DNA of 64,000 bases from Magnetospirillum sp. WYHS-4 (GTDB lineage: Bacteria > Pseudomonadota > Alphaproteobacteria > Rhodospirillales > GLO-3), in contig JAMOBD010000004.1 of assembly GCA_039908345.1 (NCBI GenBank), positions 1 to 64,000 of the forward strand, in the 5' to 3' direction. Position numbers and translations under genes: made by a program. Below are positions 14,492 to 39,972 of the stretch, one piece after another. The notes under the pieces are model-generated. The model did no database searches, was not told the origin of the DNA, and saw only the letters and a program-made list of their open reading frames with translations. Each line of letters opens with the position of its first letter. Position 1 is the stretch's first letter.

Positions 14492-14497
14492 GAGACG

Positions 14498-14525
14498 ATT
14501 TTAGCGACGATCATCAAAGATGCAA
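14498..14525 (-). promoter_or_regulatory. Promoter of the tracrRNA
   Basis: Minus-strand TTGCAT, 16-base spacer, TAAAAT. The TAAAAT ends seven bases before the first anti-repeat base, so the predicted start coincides with the anti-repeat 5' end. The -35 is a weak match. Confidence 0.6.
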
Positions 14526-14553
14526 GCGTTTATTCATGACAAAGGATTTGGTT

Positions 14554-18548: not shown

Positions 18549-18568
18549 GCGTCGAGGAGGCCCGCTTC

Positions 18569-18874
18569 ATGTGGCTGTTCTGTTTCTTCGACCTTCCGGT
18601 GAAGATGAAGGAGGAGCGGCGCGCCGCCACCCGCTTCCGCAACTACCTGCTGGGCGATGGATTCAACATGCTGCAGTACTCGGTCTACGTCCGGGTGGTC
18701 CGAGACCAGGATGGCGCCGACAAGCACATGGCCCGGCTGACCCGCAACATGCCGAGGAAGGGTAGCGTGCGCGCCCTCATCGTCACCGAACGCCAGTACG
18801 CCCGCATGAAGACCCTGCTGGGCGAGAAGAAAGCACACGAGAAACCAGCCGGGGATCAGTTGCTGCTGTTGTGA
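18569..18874 (+). CDS. cas2: CRISPR-associated protein Cas2
   Basis: 101 residues beginning MWLFCFFDLPVKMKEERRAA, the standard type II Cas2 start with the conserved FFDLP and Asp8. The ferredoxin-like fold continues through MLQYSVYVRVV and KGSVRALIVTERQY. It is the structural partner of Cas1 in spacer integration. I prefer this ATG because GAGGAGG lies nine bases upstream. An in-frame GTG eight codons earlier overlaps the cas1 stop by four bases and is the alternative. It is the last cas gene before the array. Confidence 0.95.
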   Translation: MWLFCFFDLPVKMKEERRAATRFRNYLLGDGFNMLQYSVYVRVVRDQDGADKHMARLTRNMPRKGSVRALIVTERQYARMKTLLGEKKAHEKPAGDQLLLL

Positions 18875-18890
18875 AGCTCCACCCCTCGAG

Positions 18891-18933
18891 AAAAATTCCC
18901 CCTGAGACCGGTTATATCCGGTTTCTCAGGGGG
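18891..18933 (-). terminator. Terminator of the leftward pre-crRNA transcript
   Basis: A 10-bp stem (CCCCCTGAGA / TCTCAGGGGG) with an inner CCGG/CCGG stem and a TTATAT loop lies between cas2 and the first repeat. On the minus strand it is followed by GGGAATTTTTCTC, a U-tract. On the plus strand it is followed by TTATAGAGAAAGG. The U-tract makes it a better terminator for transcription coming from the array, though it may also stop the cas operon. Confidence 0.72.
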
Positions 18934-18946
18934 TTATAGAGAAAGG

Positions 18947-21245
18947 AGCTTAGCAAAGGGAAGGCCGGGGGGAAACCACGGCCAAAGGGAAGGCCGGGGG
19001 GAAACCACGGCCAGATGACCGATGCGCTGCTCGTATTCGAGAGCTTAGCAAAGGGAAGGCCGGGGGGAAACCACGGCAGATTGCGTCAGGGCCGCAGAGA
19101 TGTCATCAGCTTAGCAAAGGGAAGGCCGGGGGGAAACCACGGCCGAGATGGTCAAGGGGCCGCCGATCAGGTCAGCTTAGCAAAGGGAAGGCCGGGGGGA
19201 AACCACGGCGGGCATCTCCGAATGGCGCAGGGCGTAGAAAGCTTAGCAAAGGGAAGGCCGGGGGGAAACCACGGCGGACGCAAAAGGCGCGGCCCGCATC
19301 GCCGGAGCTTAGCAAAGGGAAGGCCGGGGGGAAACCACGGCGCTCGGCCTCGTGACGGCCAACTAACCCCAAGCTTAGCAAAGGGAAGGCCGGGGGGAAA
19401 CCACGGCCTTCATTCGTCGATCCATGCCAGGGTCGACAGCTTAGCAAAGGGAAGGCCGGGGGGAAACCACGGCCGTTGGAGATCAGCATCGTTTCCGTCC
19501 CGGAGCTTAGCAAAGGGAAGGCCGGGGGGAAACCACGGCCGTCCTGGTATTGGGAACACGTGATCGACGAGCTTAGCAAAGGGAAGGCCGGGGGGAAACC
19601 ACGGCCCCGTCCCAATTGACCGTGTCGTTGGTAAGAGCTTAGCAAAGGGAAGGCCGGGGGGAAACCACGGCGGACGGTGAGGGCGCCAATGAGCTTAGCA
19701 AAGGGAAGGCCGGGGGGAAACCACGGCTCGAACAGGTCGAACATGGCATGGCCCGCAAGCTTAGCAAAGGGAAGGCCGGGGGGAAACCACGGCGCGGGTC
19801 GCCGCCCAAGTGACGGTGGTGGCAGCTTAGCAAAGGGAAGGCCGGGGGGAAACCACGGCTCACTTCGGGCGCGGCTATCACGCCGTCATAGCTTAGCAAA
19901 GGGAAGGCCGGGGGGAAACCACGGCGGGCGGGGATCGGCGCCCCGCTAGGCAATGAGCTTAGCAAAGGGAAGGCCGGGGGGAAACCACGGCCGCGGCCGT
20001 AACGGGGCCGTCTACTGGTATAGCTTAGCAAAGGGAAGGCCGGGGGGAAACCACGGCACAAAGGGCTGTACGGTGGGCGAGGATCAGAGCTTAGCAAAGG
20101 GAAGGCCGGGGGGAAACCACGGCGCAGCGCGAGGAGACGCGGGAAACCCTCATAGCTTAGCAAAGGGAAGGCCGGGGGGAAACCACGGCGGTTTGGACGA
20201 TACCTTGCAGCTTGGCTTGAGCTTAGCAAAGGGAAGGCCGGGGGGAAACCACGGCCTGGCTCCTCCCCCCTTCGGCCTTGTGTTCAGCTTAGCAAAGGGA
20301 AGGCCGGGGGGAAACCACGGCGCATGGCCGAACCTCCCGGCGGGGACGCGGAGCTTAGCAAAGGGAAGGCCGGGGGGAAACCACGGCCCTGCGCCTCAAG
20401 CCCTACCACGACCCCGTAGCTTAGCAAAGGGAAGGCCGGGGGGAAACCACGGCCATGGCGCGGGCCACAGATCGTCGGCGCCGAGCTTAGCAAAGGGAAG
20501 GCCGGGGGGAAACCACGGCTCGCGGACGCACAGGGCCCGCAACCCCGGCAGCTTAGCAAAGGGAAGGCCGGGGGGAAACCACGGCACACAGCCTGCAAGG
20601 GCATCCTCCGCCGCGAGCTTAGCAAAGGGAAGGCCGGGGGGAAACCACGGCCCTGATCATTGAGCGGAAATGCCGGCGTCCAGCTTAGCAAAGGGAAGGC
20701 CGGGGGGAAACCACGGCTCGATGGCACCAACGGGGCCACCGACACCGAGCTTAGCAAAGGGAAGGCCGGGGGGAAACCACGGCTGATGGTGATCTCGGCC
20801 GAAGCAAGCTTGCAGCTTAGCAAAGGGAAGGCCGGGGGGAAACCACGGCCGAAATCACCAGCCCGATCATGTCGACCGGAGCTTAGCAAAGGGAAGGCCG
20901 GGGGGAAACCACGGCCCGCTGCCGCCCATCGTCGCGTCGGTCATAAGCTTAGCAAAGGGAAGGCCGGGGGGAAACCACGGCGCGGCGGAGGATGCCCTTG
21001 CAGGCCGTGTTAGCTTAGCAAAGGGAAGGCCGGGGGGAAACCACGGCCAACTTGTCCCGAGCCATTCGATACTGCGGAGCTTAGCAAAGGGAAGGCCGGG
21101 GGGAAACCACGGCCGGCCTGGAAGGATGGGAAGTGATGGCTTCAGCTTAGCAAAGGGAAGGCCGGGGGGAAACCACGGCTGACCCACCCCCTACCGGCAG
21201 CCCGTCGTCAGCTTAGCAAAGGGAAGGCCGGGGGGAAACCACGGC
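18947..21245 (-). CRISPR. Type II-C CRISPR array, 35 full repeats + 1 truncated repeat, 34 spacers
   Basis: The repeat is 36 nt. Its crRNA-sense (minus strand) form begins GCCGTGGTTTCCCCCCGGCC and ends TTTGCTAAGCT. No base differences were seen among the full copies. Full copies start at 18947, then at 19042 and every 66 bases to 19636, then at 19692 and every 66 bases to 21210. Spacers are 30 nt except one of 20 nt (19672-19691). A 29-nt truncated repeat directly follows the first copy with no spacer. The minus strand is taken as crRNA sense because the tracrRNA anti-repeat, the U-tract terminator on the cas2 side and the TGCTA motif at the repeat end agree. The spacer at 20586-20615 is nearly the reverse complement of the one at 20982-21011. 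Confidence 0.98.
18983..19011 (-). repeat. Truncated, spacer-less CRISPR repeat copy
   Basis: 29 nt identical to positions 8-36 of the plus-strand repeat, abutting the preceding full repeat with no spacer between. In crRNA sense it lacks the last seven bases (CTAAGCT), that is, the end carrying the extended -10. It lies at the cas2-proximal end, probably the leader-distal end. Confidence 0.9.
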
Positions 21246-25692: not shown

Positions 25693-25769
<77 letters not shown>

Positions 25770-25780
25770 TTAGATTCAAT

Positions 25781-25807
25781 GGGTTAGGCCGAAGGGCCTA
25801 GCCCCTT
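25781..25807 (+). terminator. Terminator of tRNA-Arg
   Basis: GGGTTAGGCC-GAAG-GGCCTAGCCC, a 10-bp stem with one G-T pair, followed by CTTTCGG, 12 bases after the tRNA. Confidence 0.75.
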
Positions 25808-25896
25808 TCGGCTTGCTGGACCTTCAATTCACGGTACTACCGGAAGCCAAAGGCAGTTCTGGCGCCCGCAAGGGAATGGCGGTCCTTGAACTCGCC

Positions 25897-25926
25897 TTAA
25901 TGACGTCTTCATGATGTATTTATAAT
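25897..25926 (+). promoter_or_regulatory. Candidate promoter of the molybdoenzyme operon
   Basis: A perfect TATAAT (25921-25926) lies in an AT-rich stretch about 90 bases before the first operon start. TTAATG at 18-base spacing is a weak -35, which would suit an activator-dependent promoter. No FNR-type palindrome was found. Confidence 0.4.
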
Positions 25927-26013
25927 CTATTACCCATGTTAATCGTGTGGACTTTTCATGTTTCCCTGGGGTACCCTCTCCCAAACATGGCCCATGGGAG
26001 GGGAGCGCCGAAG

Positions 26014-28593
26014 ATGTTCTCGACACGCCGGGATTTTCTCAAGGGAATGGGCTCATTGGCCGCCGTCGCTTCGGGGGCCGGAATCGTACCGGCCTTTCCC
26101 AAGGTCGGAGTGGCGGCGCCGGGCCCCGTCATCGAAGAGTCCGTCAAGACCGTCTGCGTCCACTGCGTCAACTTCTGCGCCCTGGAGGTGAAGAAGGCGG
26201 GAGGCGTCATCCAGGCGATCCAGCCCGACGCCGCGCGGCGGGATATCTATAACCACGGCATCTGTCCCAAGGGCGTGGCCGGCGCCTTCACTGCTTACAA
26301 TCCGTACCGGGTCAAGACCCCCCTCAAGCGGACCAATCCCAAGAAGGGCCTGAACGAGGACCCGAAGTGGGTGGAAATCTCCTGGGACGAGGCCTTCAAC
26401 ACGATCACGGAGCGCCTGGCCAAGATCAAGGCCGACAATCCCTCCAAGCTGATCTGGCAGCACGGCCACGGCAAATACCTGATCGGCGACAATTTCCCCA
26501 AGGCCTTCTGCAAGGCCTTCGGCACGCCCAACGTCATCCATCGCACCACCACCTGCGAGTCGGCTCGCCACGTGGCGGACGACATCACCTGGGGCTATCA
26601 CGGCTTCCTGCCGGACATCGAGAATTGCAACCTGTTCGTGGTGTTCGGCTCCAACTACTTCGAGGCGGAGCAGTTCGCCCGCTGGATGGACCATGCCGTC
26701 ACCCGCGCCAAGGAGCGCGGCATGAAGGTGGTGGTGGTGGAACCGCGCCTGTCCCATCCCGCCGCCAAGGCCGACATGTGGATTCCCATCCGTCCCGGCA
26801 AGGACGTGGTCCTGGTGCTGGCGCTGACCAAGCTGCTGATCGACGACGGCAAGGTGGACGAGCCGTTCCTCGTCACCTACACCAACGCTCCGCAACTGGT
26901 GGGGGCCGACGGTCTGGTGTTGCGCGACGGCGAGGGCAAGCCCCTGGTCTGGGATACCGCCAGCAAATCCGCCAAGCCCTTCACCGAGGGTGTGACGCCG
27001 GCCCTGCGCGGCGCCTTCACCGTGGACGGCAAGCCGGTCCGGACCGGTTTCGACGTCTACGCCGACAGCTTGAAGGACATGACGCCCGAGGCGGCGGGCG
27101 AGATCGCTGGTGTTCCGGCCGAGACCATCCGCGAGCTGGCGGCCATGATCGCCCGCGAAATCCGCCTTGGCACCACCACCAATCTGGGTGATTTCAGCCA
27201 CCGCTACCGTCCGGTCTCCCTGCACACCTGGCGCGGCATGTCGGCGCGCGAGCACGGTGTGCAGACTTGGCGTTCCGCCCTGATGCTGCAGATGATCCTT
27301 GGCATTCCCGATGCCATCGGCGGCCACAAATTGGGCCGGGTGTTCAACAGCCCGGCCTACATGGAACCCTCCAAGTGCGAATACCCGCCGAAGCGGGTGG
27401 ACCTGGCCAAGAGCGTCTACTTCCCCAACGGCCATCACGACGTCTGCCAGCAGGTCGCCCTGACGGTTCTCGATCCGAAGGCCTACGGCCTCAAGTACGA
27501 ACCGGAGATGCAGATCTTCTATGCGACCAACCGGCCGGCATCGACGTCGGATACCGACGTCCAGTACCGCTCCCTGGAAAAGACCTTCAACGTCACCATC
27601 GAAGTGCACATGAGCGAGACGGCCTGGATGTCCGACATCATCCTGCCGGACCTCAACTACCTGGAATCCTGGCACTTCGCCCCGGTCCGTGCCAATCCGC
27701 ACGCCAAGCACACGGGTATCCGCCAGCCGGTGGTCAATGCCTACAACCTGAAGCACGACGGCTTCACCATCCTCTGGGAACTGGCCAAGCGCCTGGACCT
27801 CCGGGACAAGTACGTGGACGCCATCAACGAAACCTGGAAGCTCAAGGAACATACCTTCCAGAAGGGTCGCGACTACACGCCCAAGGAATCCGTCGAGGTC
27901 CTCTGGCTGAACGCCACGAAGGGCAAGCCCTTCGAAGTCGCTCTGAAGGACGGTTTCGTCGGCGGGCAGCAAAAGCCTGCCGATGTCTACACCAAGGGCA
28001 TCGAGGACAAGTTCAAGGGGCCCGGCAAGCCGAAGATGCAGTTCTATGCCGATTCTATGGTCGGCACCTTCGCCAAGCTGAAGAAAACGGTCGAGAAGGA
28101 AGGCATCAAGAATATCGACCTGGAGCGTTACCTGATCGCCTATTCGCCTTTCCCCCTGAAGGATCACGCCTTCCCGGTACCGCATCGGGAGGCGGGCCAT
28201 CTGCCCTTCTACCTGATCACCTTCAAGCGGATGTACCGCAACCAGACGGCTTGTTCGAACACCAATCCGATCCTGAACTTCGCCCTGGGCAAGGATACCC
28301 AGGAGAATCACGTCATGATGAACGGCTCGGCGGCGGCCAAGCTGGGCATCAAGGACGGCGACATGGTCACGGTCGAAAGCCGCATCGGCAAGGTGACGGG
28401 AAAGTGCAAGCTCACCGAGGGCATCCGTCCCGACACCATCGGCATCTCCTACCATTACGGCCATGCCATCGCCGGCTGGCCCGAGTATTCCCGCAAGGGT
28501 ATCGACGTGAACCGCATCCTGGAGCTTCACCCCGACCTCATCTCGGGCATGAACTCCTTCAACGACACCAAGTGCAACGTCACGAAGGCATAG
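26014..28593 (+). CDS. Molybdopterin-dependent oxidoreductase, catalytic subunit (PsrA/PhsA/ArrA-like)
   Basis: 859 residues of the DMSO-reductase superfamily. TAT signal RRDFLKG at residues 5-11, followed by a hydrophobic stretch, so it is exported folded with cofactor to the periplasm. Cys48, Cys51, Cys55 and Cys84 (CVHCVNFC, GICPKG) would bind a 4Fe-4S cluster. Cys181 (TTTCESARH) is at the molybdenum-ligand position, as in thiosulfate, polysulfide and arsenate reductases. The C-terminal pterin-binding domain is present. The neighbours are an Fe-S subunit, two cytochromes c, a TorD chaperone and a cytochrome b, giving a complete quinol-linked respiratory enzyme. The substrate is unknown; a sulfur oxyanion or polysulfide is favoured by the nearby aprBA, arsenate or selenate is possible. 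Confidence 0.9.
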   Translation: MFSTRRDFLKGMGSLAAVASGAGIVPAFPKVGVAAPGPVIEESVKTVCVHCVNFCALEVKKAGGVIQAIQPDAARRDIYNHGICPKGVAGAFTAYNPYRVKTPLKRTNPKKGLNEDPKWVEISWDEAFNTITERLAKIKADNPSKLIWQHGHGKYLIGDNFPKAFCKAFGTPNVIHRTTTCESARHVADDITWGYHGFLPDIENCNLFVVFGSNYFEAEQFARWMDHAVTRAKERGMKVVVVEPRLSHPAAKADMWIPIRPGKDVVLVLALTKLLIDDGKVDEPFLVTYTNAPQLVGADGLVLRDGEGKPLVWDTASKSAKPFTEGVTPALRGAFTVDGKPVRTGFDVYADSLKDMTPEAAGEIAGVPAETIRELAAMIAREIRLGTTTNLGDFSHRYRPVSLHTWRGMSAREHGVQTWRSALMLQMILGIPDAIGGHKLGRVFNSPAYMEPSKCEYPPKRVDLAKSVYFPNGHHDVCQQVALTVLDPKAYGLKYEPEMQIFYATNRPASTSDTDVQYRSLEKTFNVTIEVHMSETAWMSDIILPDLNYLESWHFAPVRANPHAKHTGIRQPVVNAYNLKHDGFTILWELAKRLDLRDKYVDAINETWKLKEHTFQKGRDYTPKESVEVLWLNATKGKPFEVALKDGFVGGQQKPADVYTKGIEDKFKGPGKPKMQFYADSMVGTFAKLKKTVEKEGIKNIDLERYLIAYSPFPLKDHAFPVPHREAGHLPFYLITFKRMYRNQTACSNTNPILNFALGKDTQENHVMMNGSAAAKLGIKDGDMVTVESRIGKVTGKCKLTEGIRPDTIGISYHYGHAIAGWPEYSRKGIDVNRILELHPDLISGMNSFNDTKCNVTKA

Positions 28594-28606
28594 GGGGGCC
28601 ACGGTC

Positions 28607-29296
28607 ATGAAGCTGGTTCGGGTGATCGATACCAAGCGCTGCATGGGATGCCGGGCCTGCGTGGCCGCCTGCGCGGTGGAAAACCACTTCACGCCGGGGG
28701 CGCCCTGGAACGTGATGATCGAGTCCGAGGGCGGGACGTTCCCCAACGTCTACCGCACCTTCGTCACCATGAACTGCATGCACTGCGAGAATCCGTCTTG
28801 CAAGCTGGCCTGCGACAAGGCCGGCTTCAAGGCCATCTCCAAGAATGCCCAGGGCGTGGTGCTGATCGATTACGAGAAGTGTTCCGGATGCGGCTACTGC
28901 GCGGCCGTCTGTCCCTACGGCGTGCCCCAGGTCAACGGCGCCAAGCTGGGAGCCCTCTATCCCGGACAGGGGCCGACCCCGCCCGAGGCATTGCCCGCGG
29001 AAGGGCGCCATCCCACCCACCGCAAGAAACCCAATGTCGCGGAGAAATGTACCTTCTGCTGGCACAAGCTGGAAAAGGCGATCCAGGCGGGCAAGGCCGA
29101 TCGCATCGGCAAGGACCCGGAATTCACGCCGGCCTGCGACATCGTCTGCCCCGTGGACGCCCGCGTCTTTGGGGACATCGAGGACCCGAACTCCAACGTC
29201 GCCCGCCAGATCGGCGCGCGCAAGGCGGCCCAGATCAAGCGGGATTACGGTACCCGGCCTCAAGTCTACTACGTGCTGGAAGCGGGAGAAGTGTGA
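28607..29296 (+). CDS. Four-cluster ferredoxin-like electron-transfer subunit (DmsB/PhsB-like)
   Basis: 229 residues with the cysteine groups of a four 4Fe-4S iron-sulfur subunit: CMGCRACVAAC, CMHCENPSCKLAC, CSGCGYCAAVCPYG and CTFCWHKLE with CDIVCPVDA. It shuttles electrons between the molybdoenzyme and the cytochromes. It has no signal peptide, so it is expected to be co-exported with the TAT-tagged catalytic subunit. It starts 13 bases after that gene, and its TGA overlaps the next ATG by one base. Confidence 0.95.
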   Translation: MKLVRVIDTKRCMGCRACVAACAVENHFTPGAPWNVMIESEGGTFPNVYRTFVTMNCMHCENPSCKLACDKAGFKAISKNAQGVVLIDYEKCSGCGYCAAVCPYGVPQVNGAKLGALYPGQGPTPPEALPAEGRHPTHRKKPNVAEKCTFCWHKLEKAIQAGKADRIGKDPEFTPACDIVCPVDARVFGDIEDPNSNVARQIGARKAAQIKRDYGTRPQVYYVLEAGEV

Positions 29297-29667
29297 TGAG
29301 AACTCTGGTTCTGCTCGCCGCCTTCGTGCTTTCCCTCTCCACGGCCTTCGCCCAGGAGGCCGCGCCGCCCAAGCCGGAAGGCGCCGGCATCCTGGCGGTC
29401 AAGCTGCGCGAGGGGGACATTAATCCCGGCGACAAGTACAATCTGGAAGTGGGGAGCCGCTTCCACAGCATCCACACCAAGTACATGGCCATCGGCTGCC
29501 AGACCTGCCATGCCGGAGTGAAGTTCCCCGAGAACGTCCAGTTCCTGCGCCGCGAGGAATTCCCCCTAGCCGCCTACCCCGGTGCCGTGGATCGCGGAAC
29601 TTGCCTGGGCTGCCATCGCGGCAAGGACAACATGGCTACCCAATTCTACGAAGCGACGGTGAAGTGA
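29296..29667 (+). CDS. Periplasmic di-haem cytochrome c
   Basis: 123 residues. Signal peptide MRTLVLLAAFVLSLSTAFA with cleavage before QEA. There are two CxxCH haem sites, CQTCH (68-72) and CLGCH (103-107), plus extra His residues (FHSIH) that could be distal ligands. It resembles the short cytochrome c7/c3-type proteins. It starts in the TGATG overlap with the ferredoxin gene. It probably links the ferredoxin or catalytic subunit with the hepta-haem protein. Confidence 0.9.
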   Translation: MRTLVLLAAFVLSLSTAFAQEAAPPKPEGAGILAVKLREGDINPGDKYNLEVGSRFHSIHTKYMAIGCQTCHAGVKFPENVQFLRREEFPLAAYPGAVDRGTCLGCHRGKDNMATQFYEATVK

Positions 29668-30296
29668 TGGGGGCGGAACGGTCCCCGGAAAGCCGGCAGC
29701 GGGCCGAGGCCTACTGGTTCCTGGCCTCCCTGTTCGCCGGCCCGCCGGAAGCCAACCAACTGGTCCGGCTGACGGCCCTGGACGTCCAGTCGGATGGACC
29801 GGCCGGCGAAATCGTCGCTACCTTACGGAGCGAGTCCCCAGCCGAATTGGCGGATCGCTTGGCGGTCGAGCACATCCGGCTGTTCGGAGGTCTGCGCGAG
29901 GGGTATGGCCCCCCGCCCCCGTATGAATCCCTGTGGCGCGAAGGGCGCATGATGGGCGAGGCCGCCGCCGCCGCCATGCGGGCCTATGGGGAGGCCGGCT
30001 TCCAGCCCGAGGGGCGCTGGGGTCCGCCGGACCATCTGGCCGAGGAACTGCGCTTCGTCGCCGCTCTGGCCAATGGCGAGGGCGATGCCCGGGAGGCAGG
30101 GCGGAAGGACGAGGCTTGGTGGGCGCGGGAACGTCAGGCCGATTTCGTCGAACGCCACCTGATGGGCTGGGTTCCCGATTATTGCCGCGCCCTGGAAAGC
30201 CAAGCGAGGGAGCCGCTGTACCAGGCACTCGCCAGGATCACCGTGGAAACCGTGGCGGGAGACGCCCGTTATCTGCGCGAGGATGGCCTCGACTGA
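29667..30296 (+). CDS. TorD/DmsD-family maturation chaperone
   Basis: 209 residues, mostly helical, with EHIRLFGG and PPPYESLWREG, typical of the TorD family (the Y-E-S motif). These chaperones bind the TAT signal and the apoenzyme of molybdoenzymes until the cofactor is inserted. Start and previous stop overlap as TGATG, and it sits inside the operon, so it is dedicated to the catalytic subunit. An open frame extends 22 codons upstream but without a start signal. Confidence 0.9.
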   Translation: MGAERSPESRQRAEAYWFLASLFAGPPEANQLVRLTALDVQSDGPAGEIVATLRSESPAELADRLAVEHIRLFGGLREGYGPPPPYESLWREGRMMGEAAAAAMRAYGEAGFQPEGRWGPPDHLAEELRFVAALANGEGDAREAGRKDEAWWARERQADFVERHLMGWVPDYCRALESQAREPLYQALARITVETVAGDARYLREDGLD

Positions 30297-30343
30297 GGAT
30301 GAGAGAGATTGATCGGAGCCGCGAACGGCTCCAAGGGGGAGAG

Positions 30344-31342
30344 ATGATCACCGCTCTGCACCATCGCCCGGTCGGGGTCGCGCTGCTTCTTCTGGCCGCC
30401 TTGCTGCTGGCGGGGCCGGCCTGGGCACAGACCCTGGGCGCCGCACCCAAGGACCCGGAAACCATCGAGCAGGTCCGCAAATGGAACGCGGAATGCCTGG
30501 AATGCCATGTCGAGGCCGCGTTGCGCCGGCCGCCCCGTGAGGGCATGGATTTGGTCAAGCTTGGCCAAGCTCTGACCGATCCCGAGGCTTACGCCAAGTC
30601 CAATCACGCCGGCATGGCCTGCAAGACCTGCCATCTGGGCGCCTATCGGGAATATCCCCACGCCGGAGCCGTGAAGGAAAAGGCCAGGACCCTGGAGTGC
30701 AACGAGTGCCACGCCCAGCAGACTTGGCGGGTCGAGGAGCAGGTGGCGAAAAGTACCCACGCCAAGAAGCTGAAGGACAAGTTCACCTGCAACACCTGCC
30801 ACAACGCCCACGTCTACGCCAAGGCGGAGATCCTGAAAGATTCGGCGAAGATCGTCGCCCAGGACAACGGCATGTGCATGGGCTGCCACGACTCCGACAA
30901 GAAATTCGTCGAATTCGGCGGCATCCTGATTCCAGGCAAGAAGCGACCCGACATCGACGCCATCCACAAGTGGCTGCCCAACACCAAGCGGCACTGGCAG
31001 GCGGTGCGCTGCATCGAATGCCATACGCCCAAGGCCACCACCCGGACCCTGGCCATGTCCCATGAGGTTCTGAACAAGGAGAAGGCGCAGAAGGATTGCG
31101 TCGTCTGCCATACCAAGGACACCGCGCTCCGGACCAGCCTCTACCGCTGGACCGCCGAGGAAGAGGCCTCCAAGCTCGGCTTCCTGAATAGCGCCATCCT
31201 GGGCGAGTCCTACGTCATCGGCGCCACCCGCAACGCCTATCTCGATTTCTTCGGCCTGGGACTGGTGGGGTTGACCTTCGCCGGTGTGGTGGGCCACGGC
31301 ATCATCCGCATCCTGGTCGGGCGGAAGAGGAGGGATCCATGA
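30344..31342 (+). CDS. Membrane-anchored hepta-haem cytochrome c
   Basis: 332 residues. Signal peptide (VGVALLLLAALLLAGPAWA) and seven CxxCH sites with Cys51, 93, 119, 149, 178, 223 and 252 as first cysteines (CLECH, CKTCH, CNECH, CNTCH, CMGCH, CIECH, CVVCH). One C-terminal membrane segment (FFGLGLVGLTFAGVVGHGII) is followed by an Arg/Lys anchor. Seven haems on a tail-anchored periplasmic protein is an unusual partner for a PsrA-type enzyme. It overlaps the cytochrome b gene by four bases (ATGA). GGGGGAGAG precedes the start. It likely takes electrons from the cytochrome b. Confidence 0.92.
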   Translation: MITALHHRPVGVALLLLAALLLAGPAWAQTLGAAPKDPETIEQVRKWNAECLECHVEAALRRPPREGMDLVKLGQALTDPEAYAKSNHAGMACKTCHLGAYREYPHAGAVKEKARTLECNECHAQQTWRVEEQVAKSTHAKKLKDKFTCNTCHNAHVYAKAEILKDSAKIVAQDNGMCMGCHDSDKKFVEFGGILIPGKKRPDIDAIHKWLPNTKRHWQAVRCIECHTPKATTRTLAMSHEVLNKEKAQKDCVVCHTKDTALRTSLYRWTAEEEASKLGFLNSAILGESYVIGATRNAYLDFFGLGLVGLTFAGVVGHGIIRILVGRKRRDP

Positions 31343-31953
31343 GCCATCGCATCTTCATCCTGCCGCTGTGGATCCGGCTTTGGCACTGGACCAATGCCCT
31401 GCTGATCATCACCCTGACGGTCACCGGGGCCAGCCTCCACTTCGCCGATCCCACACTTCCGCTGGTTCCCTTCGCCACGGCGGCGCGGGTCCATGACGTC
31501 GCCGGATTGTCCCTGGCCGGCCTATACGGCTTCTTCGTGATCGCCAACATCGTCAGCGGCAACTGGTGGCAGTACGTTCCCAAGCCCGGAGGGTTCGTGG
31601 AACGCTGCGCCCGCCAGACCCGGTTCTACCTGTTCGGCATCTTCAAGGGCGAGGTCCACCCATATCCGCCGACCAAGGAGGCGAACTTCAATTCGCTGCA
31701 GCAGATCGTCTACTGGATCATCATGTATTTCTTCATGCCGCTGCTGGTGCTGACGGGGCTCATCTTCCAGTGGCCCGACCTGGCCCCGAAGCGCATCTTC
31801 GGCATGGATGGCCTGGTGCCGGTGGCGGTGCTTCACTACTTGGTCGGCATCGTCATCGTCAGTTTTATGGTCGCCCACATCTACCTGGGTACCACCGGCG
31901 TCAAGGTCACCAGCCTGTTCAAGATGATGATCACCGGCTGGCACGAGGAATAG
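31339..31953 (+). CDS. Cytochrome b (b561/FdhI/PhsC-like), quinone-linked membrane subunit
   Basis: 204 residues with four membrane segments: LLIITLTVTGASLHF, VAGLSLAGLYGFFVIANIV, IVYWIIMYFFMPLLVLTGLI and VAVLHYLVGIVIVSFMVAH. Candidate haem-b histidines are WIRLWHW, VHDVAGL, AVLHYLVG and FMVAHIY, as in formate dehydrogenase gamma and thiosulfate reductase cytochrome b. It exchanges electrons with the quinone pool. It is the last gene of the operon and overlaps the hepta-haem gene by four bases. Confidence 0.92.
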   Translation: MSHRIFILPLWIRLWHWTNALLIITLTVTGASLHFADPTLPLVPFATAARVHDVAGLSLAGLYGFFVIANIVSGNWWQYVPKPGGFVERCARQTRFYLFGIFKGEVHPYPPTKEANFNSLQQIVYWIIMYFFMPLLVLTGLIFQWPDLAPKRIFGMDGLVPVAVLHYLVGIVIVSFMVAHIYLGTTGVKVTSLFKMMITGWHEE

Positions 31954-32013
31954 GCTCTCTCCTCGTTCAGGCAAAGGAATCCTGATTTTCCAGTGACCAT
32001 CTTCATTCCGTCC

Positions 32014-32039
32014 GGTGCGCCATTCTTTCAATGACTTAG
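32014..32039 (+). other. Second att-like copy of the tRNA-Arg 3' end
   Basis: GGTGCGCCATT repeats the tRNA-Arg 3' end exactly; after three divergent bases the copy continues TCAATG-AC-TTAG against TCAATG-GG-TTAG at the tRNA. It lies 61 bases after the cytochrome b stop and about 80 bases before an integrase remnant, as expected for one end of a tRNA-targeted element. Confidence 0.6.
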
Positions 32040-32067
32040 AAAGAATCCCTTCCCCGCCAGACCGTGA

Positions 32068-32087
32068 TTTGGGACAATTTTGGGACA
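32068..32087 (+). repeat. Short direct repeat next to the att-like site
   Basis: TTTGGGACA occurs twice with two bases between. Such GGGACA repeats often lie near integrase genes and may be arm-type recombinase binding sites. Confidence 0.4.
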
Positions 32088-32118
32088 GTCGGCTCCCAAA
32101 GTTCCCCGGAGGTTGGCG

Positions 32119-32343
32119 ATGGCGACCCTCATGTAGCGCGGCAAGGCCTGGCAGGCGAAGGTCCGCAAGGTCGGCTACGCCGTCCAGACGGCGACCTTCG
32201 ACACCAAGCCCGAGGCCGAGGCCTGGGCGGCGGTCATCGAATCCGAGATGGCGCGGTCGGTTTTCGTGGATCGTTCGGCAGCCGAAAAGACGTCCCTCGG
32301 GGAAGGCCGAAGGCATGCAGATGGGGGCAGGGGCGAAGCATGA
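32119..32343 (+). pseudogene. Tyrosine-recombinase (phage integrase) N-terminal remnant
   Basis: MATLM is followed by an in-frame TAG, then RGKAWQAKVRKVGY, TFDTKPEAEAWA and ESEMARSVFVDRSAAEKTSLGE. This is the N-terminal DNA-binding domain typical of integrases (QAKVR, ETKAEAEAWA, DRSEAE). The reading ends at a TGA after about 73 codons, and the catalytic domain is missing. The start region and the loss of the C-terminus show decay. Confidence 0.8.
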
Positions 32344-32434
32344 AGACATACAGCGTTTATCGGAATGATAAAATCGGCAAGGCGGTCGCCGTTGGCCCAT
32401 GGCTTCAACTGGTTTGCGATTTTTTGCCTAAATC
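32340..32434 (+). pseudogene. DUF2628-like gene fragment with frameshift
   Basis: MKTYSVYRNDKIGKAVAV matches the DUF2628 N-terminus. The family's next block (GFSWPAFFF-like) appears as AHGFNWFAIFCL in the next frame, so one base has been gained or lost near 32396. Nothing downstream continues the protein. It is a truncated remnant joined to the integrase debris. Confidence 0.5.
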
Positions 32435-32438
32435 GCGC

Positions 32439-32993
32439 TCAGGCGACATGCTCAAGGGTCTCGGCGACGAAGCCGTTGAGGCTCTTTCCCTTCCGTGCCG
32501 CTGCATCGGCGATGCGGCGATGTAGCTCCGGGCCAATCCGCACCGTGAAGCTTCCCGAATACGGCTTCTCCGGCTCCTTCCCCCTTTCCCGGCACCACTC
32601 CCTATAGTCCGCGATAGTGTCGGCAAAGGCAGTTTTCAGTTCAATGATGGTTCGTCCCTGAAAGGTCAACACGTCACGGGTGTTGACCACCTCCCCGTGG
32701 AACAACCCGGCCTCTTCGTCCAATTCGACCGTGGCGATATAGCGCCGCGTCACGCTGCCGGTGGAATGGCCCAACAGGGCGACGACGGTGGGCTCGGTAC
32801 GGCCCTTTTCATTCGCAAGCGAGGCAAAGCCATGCCGCCCGGCTGATCTAATGAATACCTTCCGTTTGTCGGATCGGCGGGAAGGATGCATGACGCTTCC
32901 AGTTCGGCCAGATTTTCCAGACGGTGCGGTGCAGGACCCTTTGATATCTTGCGTGAAGGCGTCGGGCCCTTGCCAGATGGAACCGGATGGCAC
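32439..32993 (-). pseudogene. Chimaera: integrase C-terminal fragment fused to HicB-type antitoxin
   Basis: The first half (about residues 52-92) reads RHGFASLANEKGRTEP and TVVALLGHSTGSVTRRY, the end of a tyrosine recombinase (R-H-x-x-x, GH). From IATVELDEEAGLFHGEVV onward it is a HicB-like antitoxin, ending with the ribbon-helix-helix-like FTVRIGPELHRRIADAAA and KSLNGFVAETLEHVA. The join at RRY-IATVELDEE falls where a HicB protein would read YxATVEFDEE, so the two genes have recombined in frame. No HicA toxin was found beside it. It may still make a protein, but neither domain is complete at its N-terminus. Confidence 0.65.
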
Positions 32994-34494: not shown

Positions 34495-35787
34495 TCAGCC
34501 GTCGCCCTCGCGCCGCGAGCGGCCACGCACCACGGTTCCGTCCGGCAGTCCGCTGCCCAGGCGCTCGTCCGGAGCGCCACCATAGAGAAAATCGATGCCG
34601 ATCCCCCCCCGCCGCGCCGTTTCCATATCGGGAGCCAGGAAGTAGCGTATCTCCCTCCGAGGCGCGGGCCCCAACGAACCTGCCACAGGAACAGGGCCTT
34701 GAACCGGTGGGGGAGCCGGCTTGGGTGCGGGCTGCGGTGCCGGCTTGGGTGCGGGCTGCGGTGCAGGCTTGGCACTGATGGCCGCCTTGATGACCGCCTT
34801 CGGAGACTCGACGGCGGAATGTTCCGGCTTGGCGGGTTCGACCTCCGGTCCGGACTTCGGTGCGACGTTGCCTTTGACTGCCTCCGCCACCGTTCCCAAG
34901 GCTTGCCTTAGGGGTTCCTTGGCCTCGCCCGCCGGCCCCTGAGGTGCCGATTTCGCCGCCCCCTCCAACATCCCCATTGCGCCCAGGGGCGCCTCGAACA
35001 GGTGATTGGCATCGTCCTTTTCCATGACGCCGACCGACGAAGCCTCCAAACCAAAGGAGGTTACGGTGGTAAAGGTGCCCGGCGCCTTCAGGGCGCGGGT
35101 TCCCCGTCCATTGACGATGGAGGCCTCGCCCTTGCCGCCCATGTGCACCGCCGTCAGGTTGCGGCCGTCGGGCAGGTCCAGGCCGCAACGCAAGCCCTGC
35201 AGCCGCAGGGTCGCGACCGGGGTGTCGACGCTCAAGCCCGGGTCCGCCGTCGTCTGGAAAACCATGTTGCCTTTAAGCATCGATAGGGTGGACCCGTCGA
35301 CCACATACAAGGCGAGCCGCGAAGCCTCCCCCAGTACCACCACCCCGCCCTTGCGCAGCAGCAGCGCAAGCACGGCCGCCTCGCCCGTGTCCAGGATGTC
35401 GCCCGCCATCAGCACCGAACCAGGCCCGGCCGCCTCCGACTTTCCGGCGCGATGAATAAAGGTCTCGCCACCGGTCAGGGCGACCTTAGCCACCGACTCG
35501 CCGGCGGTCGGCTGCGGATCTCCCAGATGGCGGGCCAGGGAACCGGGAACCCGGCAGCCGTCGTCGCCCTGCAGGTCGGGAGGCTCCGCGGCCATGAAGA
35601 AGCCCGCGACCGACAAGGCGCTCCCATCCCGCCAAGTCAGCACCAAATTGCCTTCCTCGCGAGAATAGGCGGCCAGGGCCGGCGGCCGATCCGCCGGCAG
35701 GCGCACCCGTCCCGACGGGTCGATGGCCAGCGCCTGCGGCGCCGGCTCGTCGTCGGTCAACTCCCAGCGTCCCAGCCCCAGGGCCAT
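34495..35787 (-). CDS. FecR-like domain protein with Pro/Ala-rich linker
   Basis: 430 residues, no signal peptide or membrane segment seen. The middle (about 95-270) resembles a FecR/iron-dicitrate type beta-helix: TGGETFIHRAGK, ILDTGEAAVLALLLRKGGVVVLGE, NMVFQTTADPGLSVDTPVATLRLQG (cited by content). A PAPQPAPKPAPQPAPKPAPP repeat follows near residue 340, then a globular end. FecR folds sense ligand or present sigma regulators, but no sigma gene is adjacent. It converges with the FkbM gene. Confidence 0.6.
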   Translation of the reverse strand: MALGLGRWELTDDEPAPQALAIDPSGRVRLPADRPPALAAYSREEGNLVLTWRDGSALSVAGFFMAAEPPDLQGDDGCRVPGSLARHLGDPQPTAGESVAKVALTGGETFIHRAGKSEAAGPGSVLMAGDILDTGEAAVLALLLRKGGVVVLGEASRLALYVVDGSTLSMLKGNMVFQTTADPGLSVDTPVATLRLQGLRCGLDLPDGRNLTAVHMGGKGEASIVNGRGTRALKAPGTFTTVTSFGLEASSVGVMEKDDANHLFEAPLGAMGMLEGAAKSAPQGPAGEAKEPLRQALGTVAEAVKGNVAPKSGPEVEPAKPEHSAVESPKAVIKAAISAKPAPQPAPKPAPQPAPKPAPPPVQGPVPVAGSLGPAPRREIRYFLAPDMETARRGGIGIDFLYGGAPDERLGSGLPDGTVVRGRSRREGDG

Positions 35788-35813
35788 GCCCTTTCCGCCC
35801 CCCTAAATGCCGA

Positions 35814-36716
35814 TCAGCAGGCTCCCATGTCTTGACGGGCCTTGACGATCGCTCTCTGCAGGACTTCCTGCTTGAGATTAATCGTCGGATCGTTAAAAAT
35901 CACATTCTTCATCCAGTCGAATCCCAGACGGACCAGCGCCTCGTCGTCGGTCTTCAGGGTTTCGAGCGCCTCCGCGTCGATGTCGTAGGTCTCCAGGAAC
36001 TTGCTGCCAAACACGAAACGGCGGAAGGAATCGACGTCCGTCGATACCATGAAGAACATCTTTTTGGTCTGGGCCGTGAGGTCCTGGCCGAAAGGCCCGC
36101 CGACCACCTTCCAGGAGGCCATCTTCATCAGGATGTCGATCCAGCCGCGGTTGACGTCGTCGTAATGGGGAACGCCCTGTTCCTCGCGGAAGGCGCTGAC
36201 AGACAATTCCTTGGTTTTGGTGTGGCCTTCGCAATGGTCTTCCTTCACCAGGAAAAAGAAATCCTCCTTTTCCTCGCTGCCCTTCATTTTCACGCTGGCC
36301 AAGCCCAGCGGATAATAGCGGCAGGTGGCGGGTCGGTCCTCGTAAACGGAACAGCCGTTCTCGCGCATGAAGGGACAGGCCCCCTTGCCGTCCTCACCGG
36401 CCATCTTGAGCTTGGCGACCGGAAGATCGGCCTTGTCCCAGAGCGCCGGAAAGGTGTGTTCGAGCAGAAACTCGGCCGGACGGACACCCAGGTTTCTGGA
36501 CAACCGCAGGATATCGTAGGGTGTCAACGTAATGTCGGCGCCATGGCAGCACTTGTTCCAGCAGGAATTTTCGCGCTTGCAGGAAAAGCAGAAGGAATCC
36601 GCGGCCGTGAGGCGGACCGGCATCACCGGGTTCTTCTGTGTCTTGACGCGCGTGGCATCGAGGATATCGACCTCGATCTCGCGGTCGAGGTAGTTCCGTT
36701 CGTAGCCTTCGGTCAT
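35814..36716 (-). CDS. YkgJ-family cysteine cluster protein
   Basis: 300 residues. Cysteines are arranged as FCFSCKRENSCWNKCCHG, then ACPFMRENGCSVYEDRPATCRYYP, the YkgJ motif (here cited in parts: CPF-x5-GC-x-VYEDRPATCR). YkgJ proteins bind Fe-S or zinc, and the function is unknown. I chose MTEGYERN as start; a further Met 15 codons upstream is possible. It follows aprA on the same strand with a hairpin between them, so it may be partly uncoupled. Confidence 0.85.
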   Translation of the reverse strand: MTEGYERNYLDREIEVDILDATRVKTQKNPVMPVRLTAADSFCFSCKRENSCWNKCCHGADITLTPYDILRLSRNLGVRPAEFLLEHTFPALWDKADLPVAKLKMAGEDGKGACPFMRENGCSVYEDRPATCRYYPLGLASVKMKGSEEKEDFFFLVKEDHCEGHTKTKELSVSAFREEQGVPHYDDVNRGWIDILMKMASWKVVGGPFGQDLTAQTKKMFFMVSTDVDSFRRFVFGSKFLETYDIDAEALETLKTDDEALVRLGFDWMKNVIFNDPTINLKQEVLQRAIVKARQDMGAC

Positions 36717-36770
36717 CGCGTATCTTCCTTCCTGGTCCTGGCGGCGCGGCATCTTATTCAAGAACGGAAA

Positions 36771-36795
36771 GGGGCGCCGGTCAAGCCGGCGCCCC
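36771..36795 (-). terminator. Terminator after aprA
   Basis: GGGGCGCCGG-TCAAG-CCGGCGCCCC is a perfect 10-bp hairpin 33 bases after the aprA stop. On the minus strand it is followed by TTTCCGTTCTTG, a weak U-tract. Confidence 0.6.
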
Positions 36796-36827
36796 CCCGA
36801 TTTCCGGAATTCCCCGGCAGTCGAAGC

Positions 36828-38744
36828 TTAGTGCTTCTGGCCGCCGTAGAACTTCTCGACGATGTCGATGTGCGGAATCTTCTTCATCTCCCACTCGCCC
36901 GTATCCGGGTTGTGGCGGGAGTTGACGAAGCACTTCCAGTTGTTGTTGTCCAGCTTCGGGAAGTCGGTGCGATAGTAGAAGCCCGGATACCGGGTTTCCT
37001 CGCGGAACATGATGTGGCGCAGGTGAGCTTCCGCCGCCCACAGGCGGTGGTAGTTCTCCCAGGCGCGCATCAGTTCGTGCAGGTCCTTCGCACGCAGGTT
37101 CTTGGAGTCTTCCTTCAGCCAAGTCAGCTGCTGCAGGCCGATTTCCAGCATCTTCGCATTGGTCTGGTAGTAGGTGGACACGCCGGCCACATACTCGTCC
37201 ATGTACTTCTGCAGACGCTTCTGGAACATGGCCGGGGTGATGTAGAACGGGTTGACGTCCTCGGCGGTCGTCTTGTCCTTGTGCTGGAAGTAGTTGCGCA
37301 CAGGCAGGTAGATTTCCTCGGCGATGGCCTTGATGTCGCCCTTGAGCGAGGGCTTGAAGCCCTTGTGGTCGCGGACGAAGCGGACCATTTCCTTGCCGGC
37401 GATGCGGCCTTCGGTGTGGGAGCCCGAAGAGAACTTGTGGCCGGAAGCGCCCACGCCGTCACCGGCGGTGAACATGCCCTTGACGGTGGTCATGCGGTTG
37501 TAGCCCCACTGCCACTCCTTCGGAGCGATGTCGGTGGGACCGGACACCCAGATGCCGGAGCAACCGGAGTGCGAACCCAGCAGGTACGGCTCGGTCGGCA
37601 TCAGTTCGGACGGAGTCTCTTCCGGACGGATGTTCATACCGGCCCACACGCCGGCCTGACCGATGCACATATCCAGGAAGTCTTCCCAAGCCTCGGCTTC
37701 GAGGTGCTTGATTTCCTGCGGGGTCATGGTCTCGGCCAGCTTCTTCATGGCCGTGTGGGTGTTCATGAGGATGGGGCCGCGCCCTTCCTTCATTTCCTTC
37801 AGCATGGCGTGGTTACGCAGGCAGGTCGGGACCACGGCGGCCGTATCGTAGGGAGCGAACTCCTTCAGCATGTCGGCGTTCTTGATCACGTAGTTCTCGC
37901 CCGCGCCGTTGGTGGCCTGCGACTTGAACAGCAGGAACCAAGCGCCCACCGGGCCGTAACCGTCCTTGAAGCGGGCGGGCACGAAGCGGTTTTCCATCAT
38001 GGTCAGCTCGGCGCCGACTTCCGCCGCCATGGCGTAGGTCGAACCGGCATTCCACACCGGGTACCAGGTGCGGCCGTTGCCTTCGCCGTTGGACCGCGGA
38101 CGGAAGATGTTCACCGCGCCGCCGCAGACGTTCAGGATGGTGTTGGCGCGGAAGACGAACAGCTTGTGCTCGCGGACGCTGAGGCCGACGGCACCGGCGA
38201 TGCGGTTGGGCTCGTTGGTGTCGAGCAGGTACTTCACGATGAAGCAACGCTCGATGATGTTCTCGATACCGAGCGCCTTCTTGGCGGCTTCGGCGACGAT
38301 GGGCTTGTAGCTTTCGCCGTTGATCATGATCTGCCAGCGGCCGGAACGGACCGGCTTGCCGCCGTCCTTCAGGGGCACGCCTTCGCTGCCCTTTTCCTTC
38401 CACACGGGCAGGCCCCACTCTTCGAAGAGCTGCACGGTGGCATCCACATGACGGCCCACGTCGAAGACCAAGTCGTCGCGGGTCAAACCCATCAGGTCGG
38501 CGCTGACCATGCGGACGTAGTCCTTCGGGTCCTGGTCGCCCAGGTAGGTGTTGATGGCGGACAGGCCCATGGCGACCGCGCCGGAGCGGTCCATGGCAGC
38601 CTTGTCGACCAGGGTGATCTTGACGTCGTCGCCGGCCCAGCGCTTCGCCTCGAAGGCCGCGCCGCAAGCCGCCATACCGCCGCCGACGATCAGGATGTCG
38701 GTTTCGACGTCGATGATTTCGGGATCCCCGAAAGTACCAGCCAT
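36828..38744 (-). CDS. aprA: Adenylylsulfate (APS) reductase alpha subunit
   Basis: 638 residues. The FAD-binding fold begins ILIVGGGMAACGAAFEAK, and the sequence follows the AprA family through INTYLGDQDPKDY, WYPVWNAGSTYAMAAEVGAE and HSGCSGIWVSGPTD. It converts APS to sulfite and AMP, or the reverse in sulfur oxidisers, in the cytoplasm. aprB lies 83 bases upstream. No qmoABC, aprM or sat gene is in the window, so the membrane electron partner and the direction cannot be read here. GGAGAATGAG-like sequence precedes the start. Confidence 0.97.
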   Translation of the reverse strand: MAGTFGDPEIIDVETDILIVGGGMAACGAAFEAKRWAGDDVKITLVDKAAMDRSGAVAMGLSAINTYLGDQDPKDYVRMVSADLMGLTRDDLVFDVGRHVDATVQLFEEWGLPVWKEKGSEGVPLKDGGKPVRSGRWQIMINGESYKPIVAEAAKKALGIENIIERCFIVKYLLDTNEPNRIAGAVGLSVREHKLFVFRANTILNVCGGAVNIFRPRSNGEGNGRTWYPVWNAGSTYAMAAEVGAELTMMENRFVPARFKDGYGPVGAWFLLFKSQATNGAGENYVIKNADMLKEFAPYDTAAVVPTCLRNHAMLKEMKEGRGPILMNTHTAMKKLAETMTPQEIKHLEAEAWEDFLDMCIGQAGVWAGMNIRPEETPSELMPTEPYLLGSHSGCSGIWVSGPTDIAPKEWQWGYNRMTTVKGMFTAGDGVGASGHKFSSGSHTEGRIAGKEMVRFVRDHKGFKPSLKGDIKAIAEEIYLPVRNYFQHKDKTTAEDVNPFYITPAMFQKRLQKYMDEYVAGVSTYYQTNAKMLEIGLQQLTWLKEDSKNLRAKDLHELMRAWENYHRLWAAEAHLRHIMFREETRYPGFYYRTDFPKLDNNNWKCFVNSRHNPDTGEWEMKKIPHIDIVEKFYGGQKH

Positions 38745-38827
38745 TGTCTCATTCTCCTGTCTGCGCGGTTACCCGTCGTCCCGACGGGCCTCCCGCGTGT
38801 GGAAATATGTCTCGGAACGGTCCCGTG

Positions 38828-39250
38828 TCAGGGAGTCGGCAGGGTCTTGCCGGTCTCGGTGAACAGCAGGTTGTCGTCCAGGCTGCCGGGTGCCGGCTTG
38901 TTGCCGTACGGGTCGATGGAACCGACCGGCGTGGTGCGGACCGGGAACTTGAAGCGCTTCACTTCACCGTCGCGGAACTTGATGGTCCACATGATGGCGG
39001 TATCGGTACGCAGCGGGATGCAGGCGCCGCCCATCGGCACCACGTCCTGGTAGGCGCGAACCTCGATGGCCTGCTGCGGGCAAGCCTTCACGCAGCACTG
39101 GCATTCCCAGCACTGGTCGGGCTCCTGATTGAAGGCCTTCATGCGCTCGGTATCGAGCTTCATGAGGTTGTTCGGGCAGATGTACATGCAAGCGGTCACC
39201 TGACCGCCCTTGCAGCCATCGCACTTCTCGGTGTGCACGAAGGTGGGCAT
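38828..39250 (-). CDS. aprB: Adenylylsulfate (APS) reductase beta subunit
   Basis: 140 residues with two 4Fe-4S clusters: CDGCKGG ... CMYICP and CWECQCCVKACP. The C-terminal tail (VRTTPVGSIDPYG, LLFTETGKTLPTP) wraps around AprA in this family. It passes electrons to and from the FAD of AprA. It is the first gene of the aprBA pair, preceded by a long leader. Confidence 0.97.
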   Translation of the reverse strand: MPTFVHTEKCDGCKGGQVTACMYICPNNLMKLDTERMKAFNQEPDQCWECQCCVKACPQQAIEVRAYQDVVPMGGACIPLRTDTAIMWTIKFRDGEVKRFKFPVRTTPVGSIDPYGNKPAPGSLDDNLLFTETGKTLPTP

Positions 39251-39274
39251 TGAGCGTTTCCCCTGATTTCCTCA

Positions 39275-39306
39275 GTTGAGATGACATCCGGGTTGAGATG
39301 ACATCC
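39275..39306 (-). repeat. Tandem 15-bp repeat in the aprBA leader
   Basis: GTTGAGATGACATCC occurs at 39275-39289 and 39292-39306, a 17-base period, 25-56 bases before the aprB start and inside the predicted 5' untranslated region. The regular spacing suggests a binding site for a dimeric regulator or an RNA element. Confidence 0.8.
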
Positions 39307-39429
39307 AGAAGCGGGGAACTTCTCCGCCCCCACCCATATAGCGACCGCACGACGCAACCCCGTTGCGCCATCCGGAAAGCCAAATGGCCGCTCCCAGACT
39401 TCGGTGACCCGAATATATTATGGTTTATT

Positions 39430-39458
39430 CATATACGCGGGTCCGCGAAGGCTGTCAA
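39430..39458 (-). promoter_or_regulatory. Sigma-70-like promoter for aprBA
   Basis: A perfect minus-strand TTGACA (-35), a 17-base spacer and TATATG (-10) in an AT-rich pocket. The predicted start near 39423 gives a leader of about 170 bases. The rest of the 39251-39615 gap holds the direct repeat; no gene was seen. Confidence 0.65.
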
Positions 39459-39615
39459 ATGACTTGGATCGATGTCCGCGCCGCCTGGCGCACGATCCTT
39501 TCAAGGTATTGGCGAACAAGGGTAATTTTTTGGTAGCCCGAGCCCCCCGGCAAGCAATCGCGTTGCCATCCGAGGGCGGCTGTGCTCCCATGGAGCCCGA
39601 CAGGGAGGACCGAGG

Positions 39616-39972
39616 ATGCCCGAGACCATCGCCCATTTGACGCGCCGCCTGGTGGAATTCCGCGAAGAGCGGGACTGGGCCCAGTTCCACAGCCTGAAGA
39701 ACCTGCTGATGTCGCTGACCATCGAATCGGCCGAGCTTCTGGAACTGGCGCAATGGAAGGAAGACGGCGCCCTGGAGGCCGACCTGCACCGTCCCGAGGT
39801 CAAGGCCCGCCTCGAGGAAGAGGTGGCGGATGTCTTTCTCTATTTGCTGCTGGTCTGCGAGCGGGCAGGCATCGACCTCGCCCGGGCGGCGGAACGCAAG
39901 ATCGACCTCAACGCCGCCAAGTACCCGGCCCACAAGGCGCGAGGTTCGGCGCGGAAGTACACCGAGCTATAA
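39616..39972 (+). CDS. MazG-like nucleotide pyrophosphohydrolase
   Basis: 118 residues of the MazG/RS21-C6 all-alpha fold. The Mg-binding acids are in ESAELLEL (E-x3-E-like) and EEEVADVFLYLL (E-x2-D). It would hydrolyse non-canonical or surplus dNTPs, dCTP-like in the RS21-C6 branch, to the monophosphate. One gene, overlapping the convergent response regulator by six bases. Confidence 0.88.
   Translation: MPETIAHLTRRLVEFREERDWAQFHSLKNLLMSLTIESAELLELAQWKEDGALEADLHRPEVKARLEEEVADVFLYLLLVCERAGIDLARAAERKIDLNAAKYPAHKARGSARKYTEL

Follow-up and report, generated by a model that had tools for sequence, protein, structure and literature searches.

The first 64,000 nucleotides of contig JAMOBD010000004.1 from Magnetospirillum sp. 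WYHS-4 (positions 1 to 64,000 of a contig of ~100 kb, hereafter the window) contain an intact tRNA-Arg(CCG) gene followed by a six-gene molybdoenzyme operon, beyond which lie a second copy of the tRNA 3' end and the debris of a tyrosine integrase (Table 1). The layout of this locus, the history that it suggests and the distribution of the operon in other genomes are described here; codon and motif statistics cover about 0.4-0.5 Mb of the genome.

The tRNA and its displaced copy are linked by the 11-mer GGTGCGCCATT, which consists of the last nine bases of the tRNA plus TT and occurs exactly at 25761-25771 and at 32014-32024, against an expectation of 0.07 copies in the window. At both places TCAATG-NN-TTAG comes next, and TCAATGNNTTAG, for which 82 kb of the contig and 512 kb of the genome were scanned, has two occurrences only, each directly 3' of the 11-mer. 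The remaining matches to tRNA-Arg(CCG) in this genome are just ~76% alike. A direct repeat of the tRNA 3' end therefore lies opposite the intact tRNA, as is looked for in a genomic island, though it is short and, 5' of the 11-mer, has decayed. A third copy of GGTGCGCCATT, at 62901-62911 on the minus strand, was rejected as a chance occurrence rather than an attachment (att) site because it lies inside coding sequence whose translation resembles a glycine-dehydrogenase subunit; a copy with two mismatches on contig C6 was likewise set aside, there being no tRNA at that place.

To the right of the second copy, the motif stands at +5, a direct repeat with a period of 11 at +45 and the start of an integrase at +96. 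The integrase remnant matches annotated site-specific integrases from residue 1, with up to 53% identity, and is 60% and 49% identical to the N-termini of tRNA-Arg-adjacent integrases in two relatives, G049 and G030, respectively. It is a pseudogene, and it is located outside the bracketed interval, where the integrase of an island would be sought inside. The interval itself, 25772-32013, holds no recombinase: an integrase hidden Markov model (HMM) scan of the window returned only the remnant at 32.4-33.1 kb, and the six operon genes are the only ones recognised in the segment. An open reading frame (ORF) at 32439-32993, on the minus strand, joins a HicB antitoxin and an integrase C-terminal remnant in one frame and resembles a deletion fusion. 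A tblastx comparison of the debris with the genome gave mostly compositional noise.

Much of this architecture had been noticed in an original prediction made from the letters of the window alone, and its descriptive claims hold up well. The exact recurrence of the tRNA-Arg end at 32014-32024, with TCAATG-NN-TTAG after both copies, is upheld by the window, contig and genome scans, although the third copy of GGTGCGCCATT is absent from that account. The GGGACA direct repeat that it placed by the second copy proves to be two units of TTTGGGACA with a period of 11, the integrase N-terminal remnant next to it is established at 32119-32304 by its integrase matches, and the gene coordinates put the six-gene respiration operon, as claimed, wholly between the two tRNA-end copies.

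Table 1. Features of the tRNA-Arg(CCG) locus in the window
Feature	Position	Strand	Basis or remark
tRNA-Arg(CCG), intact, attachment gene	25693..25769	+	ARAGORN
First attachment-site copy: tRNA 3' end GGTGCGCCATT and motif TCAATGGGTTAG, without arm repeats	25761..25787	+	
Operon-bearing segment, CIME-like	25772..32013	.	Two putative att copies bracket 6.2 kb
Tat-exported molybdoenzyme catalytic subunit, PhsA/PsrA/ArrA clade	26014..28593	+	Pfam and PDB matches; NCBIfam matches all below family cut-offs
4Fe-4S electron-transfer subunit, ArrB/QrcC/NrfC-like	28607..29296	+	
Di-haem c-type cytochrome	29296..29667	+	Two CXXCH; weak Cytochrome_C7 match
TorD/NarJ-type maturation chaperone	29667..30296	+	PF02613 5.7e-23
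Hepta-haem c-type cytochrome, C-terminal hydrophobic segment	30344..31342	+	Seven CXXCH; Cytochrome_C7 8.4e-14
b-type cytochrome quinone subunit, PhsC-like	31339..31953	+	PF01292 1.2e-22; thiosulfate reductase cytochrome B 7e-52, below cut-off
Second attachment-site copy: GGTGCGCCATT, CTT and TCAATGACTTAG	32014..32039	+	Like G050 and prophage integrase ends
Arm-type direct repeat TTTGGGACA, period 11	32068-32076 and 32079-32087	+	Position and period as after intact tRNA-Arg in relatives and prophages
Tyrosine-integrase N-terminal pseudogene	32119..32304	+	In-frame TAG at codon 6; ends after ~62 codons
Truncated gene fragment	32340..32429	+	Longer copy on contig C58, 85% DNA identity over 127 bp
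HicB antitoxin, part of remnant ORF 32439-32993	32442..32741	-	PF05534 4.5e-22
Tyrosine-integrase C-terminal remnant, in frame with HicB	32739..32879	-	Weak integrase-HMM hit, E=0.008; RHGFASL...GHS...RRY pattern

The tRNA-Arg hotspot in relatives and viruses

This tRNA-Arg gene is an integration hotspot throughout the order. The locus could be read in 24 relatives, of which nine have a partial copy of tRNA-Arg near the tRNA and five an integrase within ~1.2 kb downstream of it. The layout 3' of tRNA-Arg(CCG) begins with CCA and a motif resembling TCAATGACTTA at +5 to +7 (farther in G049 and G021), which is followed by a direct repeat of at least 7 bp whose period is exactly 11 bp and which mostly stands at +45 to +50 (+66/67 in G030 and G049). 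The repeat units themselves vary, being GGGACA in G050 and G030, GCAATCA in G005 and G025, CCCCACT in G003, AGGGCAC in G037, TGGGTCA in G026 and TTGCGCT in G049. G030 and G049 each have an integrase gene that begins ~100-130 bp past the tRNA and points away from it. When viral contigs were scanned for the pattern, 10 matched, every one of them preceded by a tRNA-Arg 3' end and seven with the period-11 repeat. The viral contigs L172-L181 (IMG/VR) combine the tRNA-Arg 3' end with TCAATGACTTAG and period-11 repeats, and both CCG and ACG isoacceptors are used.

The window thus shares with the tRNA-Arg elements and prophages (G030, G049, G050, L172-L181) the tRNA 3' end, the TCAATGACTTA-type motif and the period-11 repeats, behind which an integrase follows closely in G030 and G049 also. 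It differs from them in that 6.2 kb of cargo precede these features on the side of the intact tRNA, and in that its integrase is a pseudogene. Partial copies as short as that in the window are found in G009 and G007, beginning there at tRNA position 65-68, and viral contig L181 has just ~16 tRNA bases. In G001 (L063, L064), two full copies of tRNA-Arg(CCG) form the ends of an apparent element and share 111 identical bases, including the TTTTTTCAATGGGTTAG motif; the motif therefore belongs to the attachment core in that genome, which accounts for its presence in both copies of the window. In elements of another kind, L109 (G010) and L101 (G050), it is the 5' half of this tRNA-Arg that is duplicated, and the integrase lies upstream of the tRNA.

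A proposed tandem accretion beside the tRNA

Taken together, the positions of these features make it likely that two elements stand in tandem at tRNA-Arg, namely an operon island resembling a cis-mobilizable element (CIME), which arrived by site-specific integration, and an outer, dead tRNA-Arg element that extends rightward from it. The operon was thus probably added to the chromosome as a small genomic island. The second element is taken to extend to the right because in relatives the element side is where the motif and arm repeats are found; with 32014-32304 as the tRNA-side end of a rightward, older element, the dead integrase falls outside the operon interval. The original prediction had proposed a genomic island at a tRNA whose own recombinase is dead. 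Its first part stands, the island being supported by the hotspot, the integrase-end signature and the patchy occurrence of the operon, whereas the dead recombinase is better assigned, by its orientation and position, to the second element right of 32014.

The following history is consistent with this arrangement. Tyrosine-integrase elements would have used the tRNA-Arg(CCG) gene as their attachment site in the chromosome, and two of them would have come to lie in tandem. In the outer element, from 32014 rightward, the tRNA end, the motif, the arm repeats and the dead start of an integrase would have survived. Site-specific recombination at the tRNA 3' end would then have placed the 6.2-kb operon segment between this element and the tRNA, with an integrase that came in trans or was encoded by the segment and has since been lost. 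With integration of the operon segment the tRNA would have become whole again and its former 3' end would have been pushed out to 32014, and subsequent decay of both elements would have left the operon immobile. If so, the locus is an example of a whole respiratory trait that was added beside a tRNA and then stranded once the recombinases had died.

The same features could be read as a single island that carries the operon from attL, at the tRNA, to attR, at 32014, with the integrase debris as the remains of its own recombinase. Two att copies do bracket the operon with integrase debris adjacent, and in G005 and G027 an integrase is found beside the partial tRNA copy and not beside the tRNA. 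However, the integrase of G005 and G027 is encoded on the minus strand within the element, to the left of the partial copy, whereas here it lies outside, to the right and on the plus strand, behind a motif and arm repeats that at other loci come after the intact tRNA, towards the element. A single island is, in our judgement, very unlikely.

The proposed tandem would be an event of a known kind, since accretion of this sort has already been described. Both a definition of CIMEs and a three-step scenario for tandem accretion at a tRNA or gene end are available, and the accumulation of elements that keep their att sites while losing their recombination genes is a described process (PMC5704250). 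In common with a CIME, the segment lies between att sites, of which two putative copies are kept, and holds no recognised genes for recombination (integration) or transfer; the accretion would have taken place in the 3' end of the attachment gene, and the neighbouring element has the same attachment specificity, as judged from the integrase-end signature at 32014-32304. It differs from a CIME in that its neighbour is dead, its att copies are putative, decayed and short, and a third att site is missing. As this expected third site was sought and not found, the segment is named CIME-like and not CIME. A literature search on the combination of tRNA and island, on the motif and on the hosts of the operon returned nothing relevant.

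A number of observations weigh against site-specific accretion. Identity between the two copies is short, comprising 11 bp and the motif, and upstream of the 11-mer it is little better than chance; no tRNA half of 20-50 bp has been kept, unlike in several relatives, and longer tRNA-Arg half copies were sought in the contig and not found. A search for a third att copy that would close the outer element on its right gave none within 50 kb, as far as 82 kb into the contig; this site may have decayed or been lost. Nor was an empty tRNA-Arg site found via the left and right neighbours in G001, the only family relative compared, where these do not adjoin the tRNA. When the operon was searched for as a unit at other tRNAs, as the original prediction had suggested, no tRNA was found to adjoin the complete cassettes in other hosts; a four-gene locus in Aquificaceae, L049, includes a tRNA-Leu. 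Finally, the proposed comparison of codon use gave no support for a recent transfer: rather than being atypical, the operon resembles its host in both codon use and dinucleotide signature, with the segment at the 6th percentile for GC and the 76th for dinucleotide distance. Because its codon use is host-like, the operon would have been acquired long ago, or from a similar donor.

The neighbourhood of the tRNA bears on a further alternative. In G001, the sole family relative compared, synteny next to the tRNA is broken on both sides. The left neighbours in the window, DUF1223-purA, do not adjoin tRNA-Arg in the relatives examined, DUF1223 being without a match in G001, and the right-hand block of the G001 tRNA locus is found here on contig C41. 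The gene order of a FecR-YkgJ-aprA-aprB-mazG block (window 34495-39972) is the same in G001 (C203) and, in part, in other relatives, and in G001 the block sits away from tRNA-Arg; this block is a conserved sulfur-oxidation neighbourhood. Family-wide synteny of tRNA-Arg, operon and downstream genes, which the original prediction had named as grounds for refutation, is not observed. The rearrangement of both tRNA flanks relative to G001, coupled with the shortness of the repeat and the lack of a recombinase inside the segment, would also be expected if the second tRNA-end copy marked an old element and the operon segment had come by illegitimate recombination or rearrangement rather than by site-specific integration. 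Nevertheless, an intact tRNA with a displaced 3' end and motif is the expected trace of tRNA-targeted integration, and a simple insertion would not duplicate ~25 bp that correspond precisely to the tRNA end plus the core of the motif; such an origin is considered unlikely. A binning error is argued against by the position of the operon, 25 kb inside a 100-kb contig and between core genes, with purA to the left and aprAB-mazG, ordered as in G001, to the right.

The operon and its distribution

The catalytic subunit falls well short of the equivalog cut-off for PhsA (252.6 bits against 694), and the ArrAB cut-offs are missed in the same way (ArrA, 196.7 against 1600 bits; ArrB, 133.7 against 450 bits). 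The solved structures closest to it are ArrA and polysulfide/thiosulfate reductase, as partial matches only. The operon shares with PhsABC/PsrABC and ArrAB a molybdenum subunit exported by the twin-arginine translocation (Tat) pathway, a multi-cluster Fe-S subunit and a PhsC-like cytochrome b; it differs in scores that lie far under the cut-offs and in the addition of di-haem and hepta-haem cytochromes. Such an architecture points to an exchange of electrons between a periplasmic substrate and the quinone pool, and the product of the operon is most likely a periplasmic quinone-linked oxidoreductase of the PhsA/PsrA/ArrA clade. It belongs to a widely scattered molybdoenzyme family to which the libraries searched assign no substrate.

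Of the 60 genomes of the order that were searched, this one alone has the catalytic gene, and the other 59 are without the operon. Complete six-gene cassettes are found in an uncultured Rhodospirillaceae (84% identity), Accumulibacter (78%), Rhodoplanes (75%) and Tropicimonas (72%), the last of these with a tyrosine integrase 1.6 kb downstream of the cassette. The closest of them, at 84%, stands on a contig of just 7.8 kb (L040), and the carriers in culture include Rhodoplanes elegans DSM 11907 and Tropicimonas sp. IMCC6043. The six genes also occur in a Rhodobacteraceae bin, where the catalytic gene is incomplete; Thiobacillus, other Betaproteobacteria and Aquificaceae carry a three- or four-gene core. 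The cargo is thus sporadically distributed, in scattered alphaproteobacterial, betaproteobacterial and Aquificota hosts, and the betaproteobacterial copy, that of Accumulibacter, nests within an alphaproteobacterial clade with support of 100/100. The absence from 59 of the 60 genomes, the distant six-gene cassettes and this nested copy all support the contention of the original prediction that the operon was gained by transfer. Its host-like codon use would instead suit an operon that is ancestral in the lineage and was lost elsewhere, with the tRNA-end copy and the debris as unrelated neighbours, and the comparison set includes only one other member of the family. However, both the 59 genomes without the operon and the betaproteobacterial copy inside the alphaproteobacterial clade speak against such an ancestry, as do the att copies that closely frame the operon, and it is regarded as highly improbable.

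A broader proposal can be offered tentatively, with rather more doubt than confidence. The operon may represent an uncharacterised respiratory molybdoenzyme cassette, distinct from thiosulfate, polysulfide and arsenate reductases, that is passed on as a whole between alpha- and betaproteobacteria and arrived here by accretion at the tRNA-Arg hotspot; the tRNA end, TCAATGACTTA and repeats with an 11-bp period might then serve as a signature for locating dead or integrase-less elements from DNA alone. The signature in question (tRNA-Arg 3' end, TCAATGACTTA motif, period-11 repeat and often an integrase) would be usable for finding similar stranded cargo.

In three other loci, genes for a PhnD-like binding protein and a histidine kinase adjoin the cassette (L041, 6093-9692; L042, 6663-9482; L046, 6849-9175), together with a response regulator in L041 and L042; such neighbours are seen in Accumulibacter and Rhodoplanes. 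These sensor-like neighbours suggest that the cassette is regulated by a small oxyanion. They are missing from the operon in the window, and only a distant match exists in this genome.

Elsewhere in the window, at 14422-21200, lies a type II-like CRISPR-Cas locus with a 1043-aa protein that carries Cas9 HNH and RuvC domains, Cas1 (17646-18548), a small Cas2-like ORF and a repeat array at ~19.2-21.2 kb.

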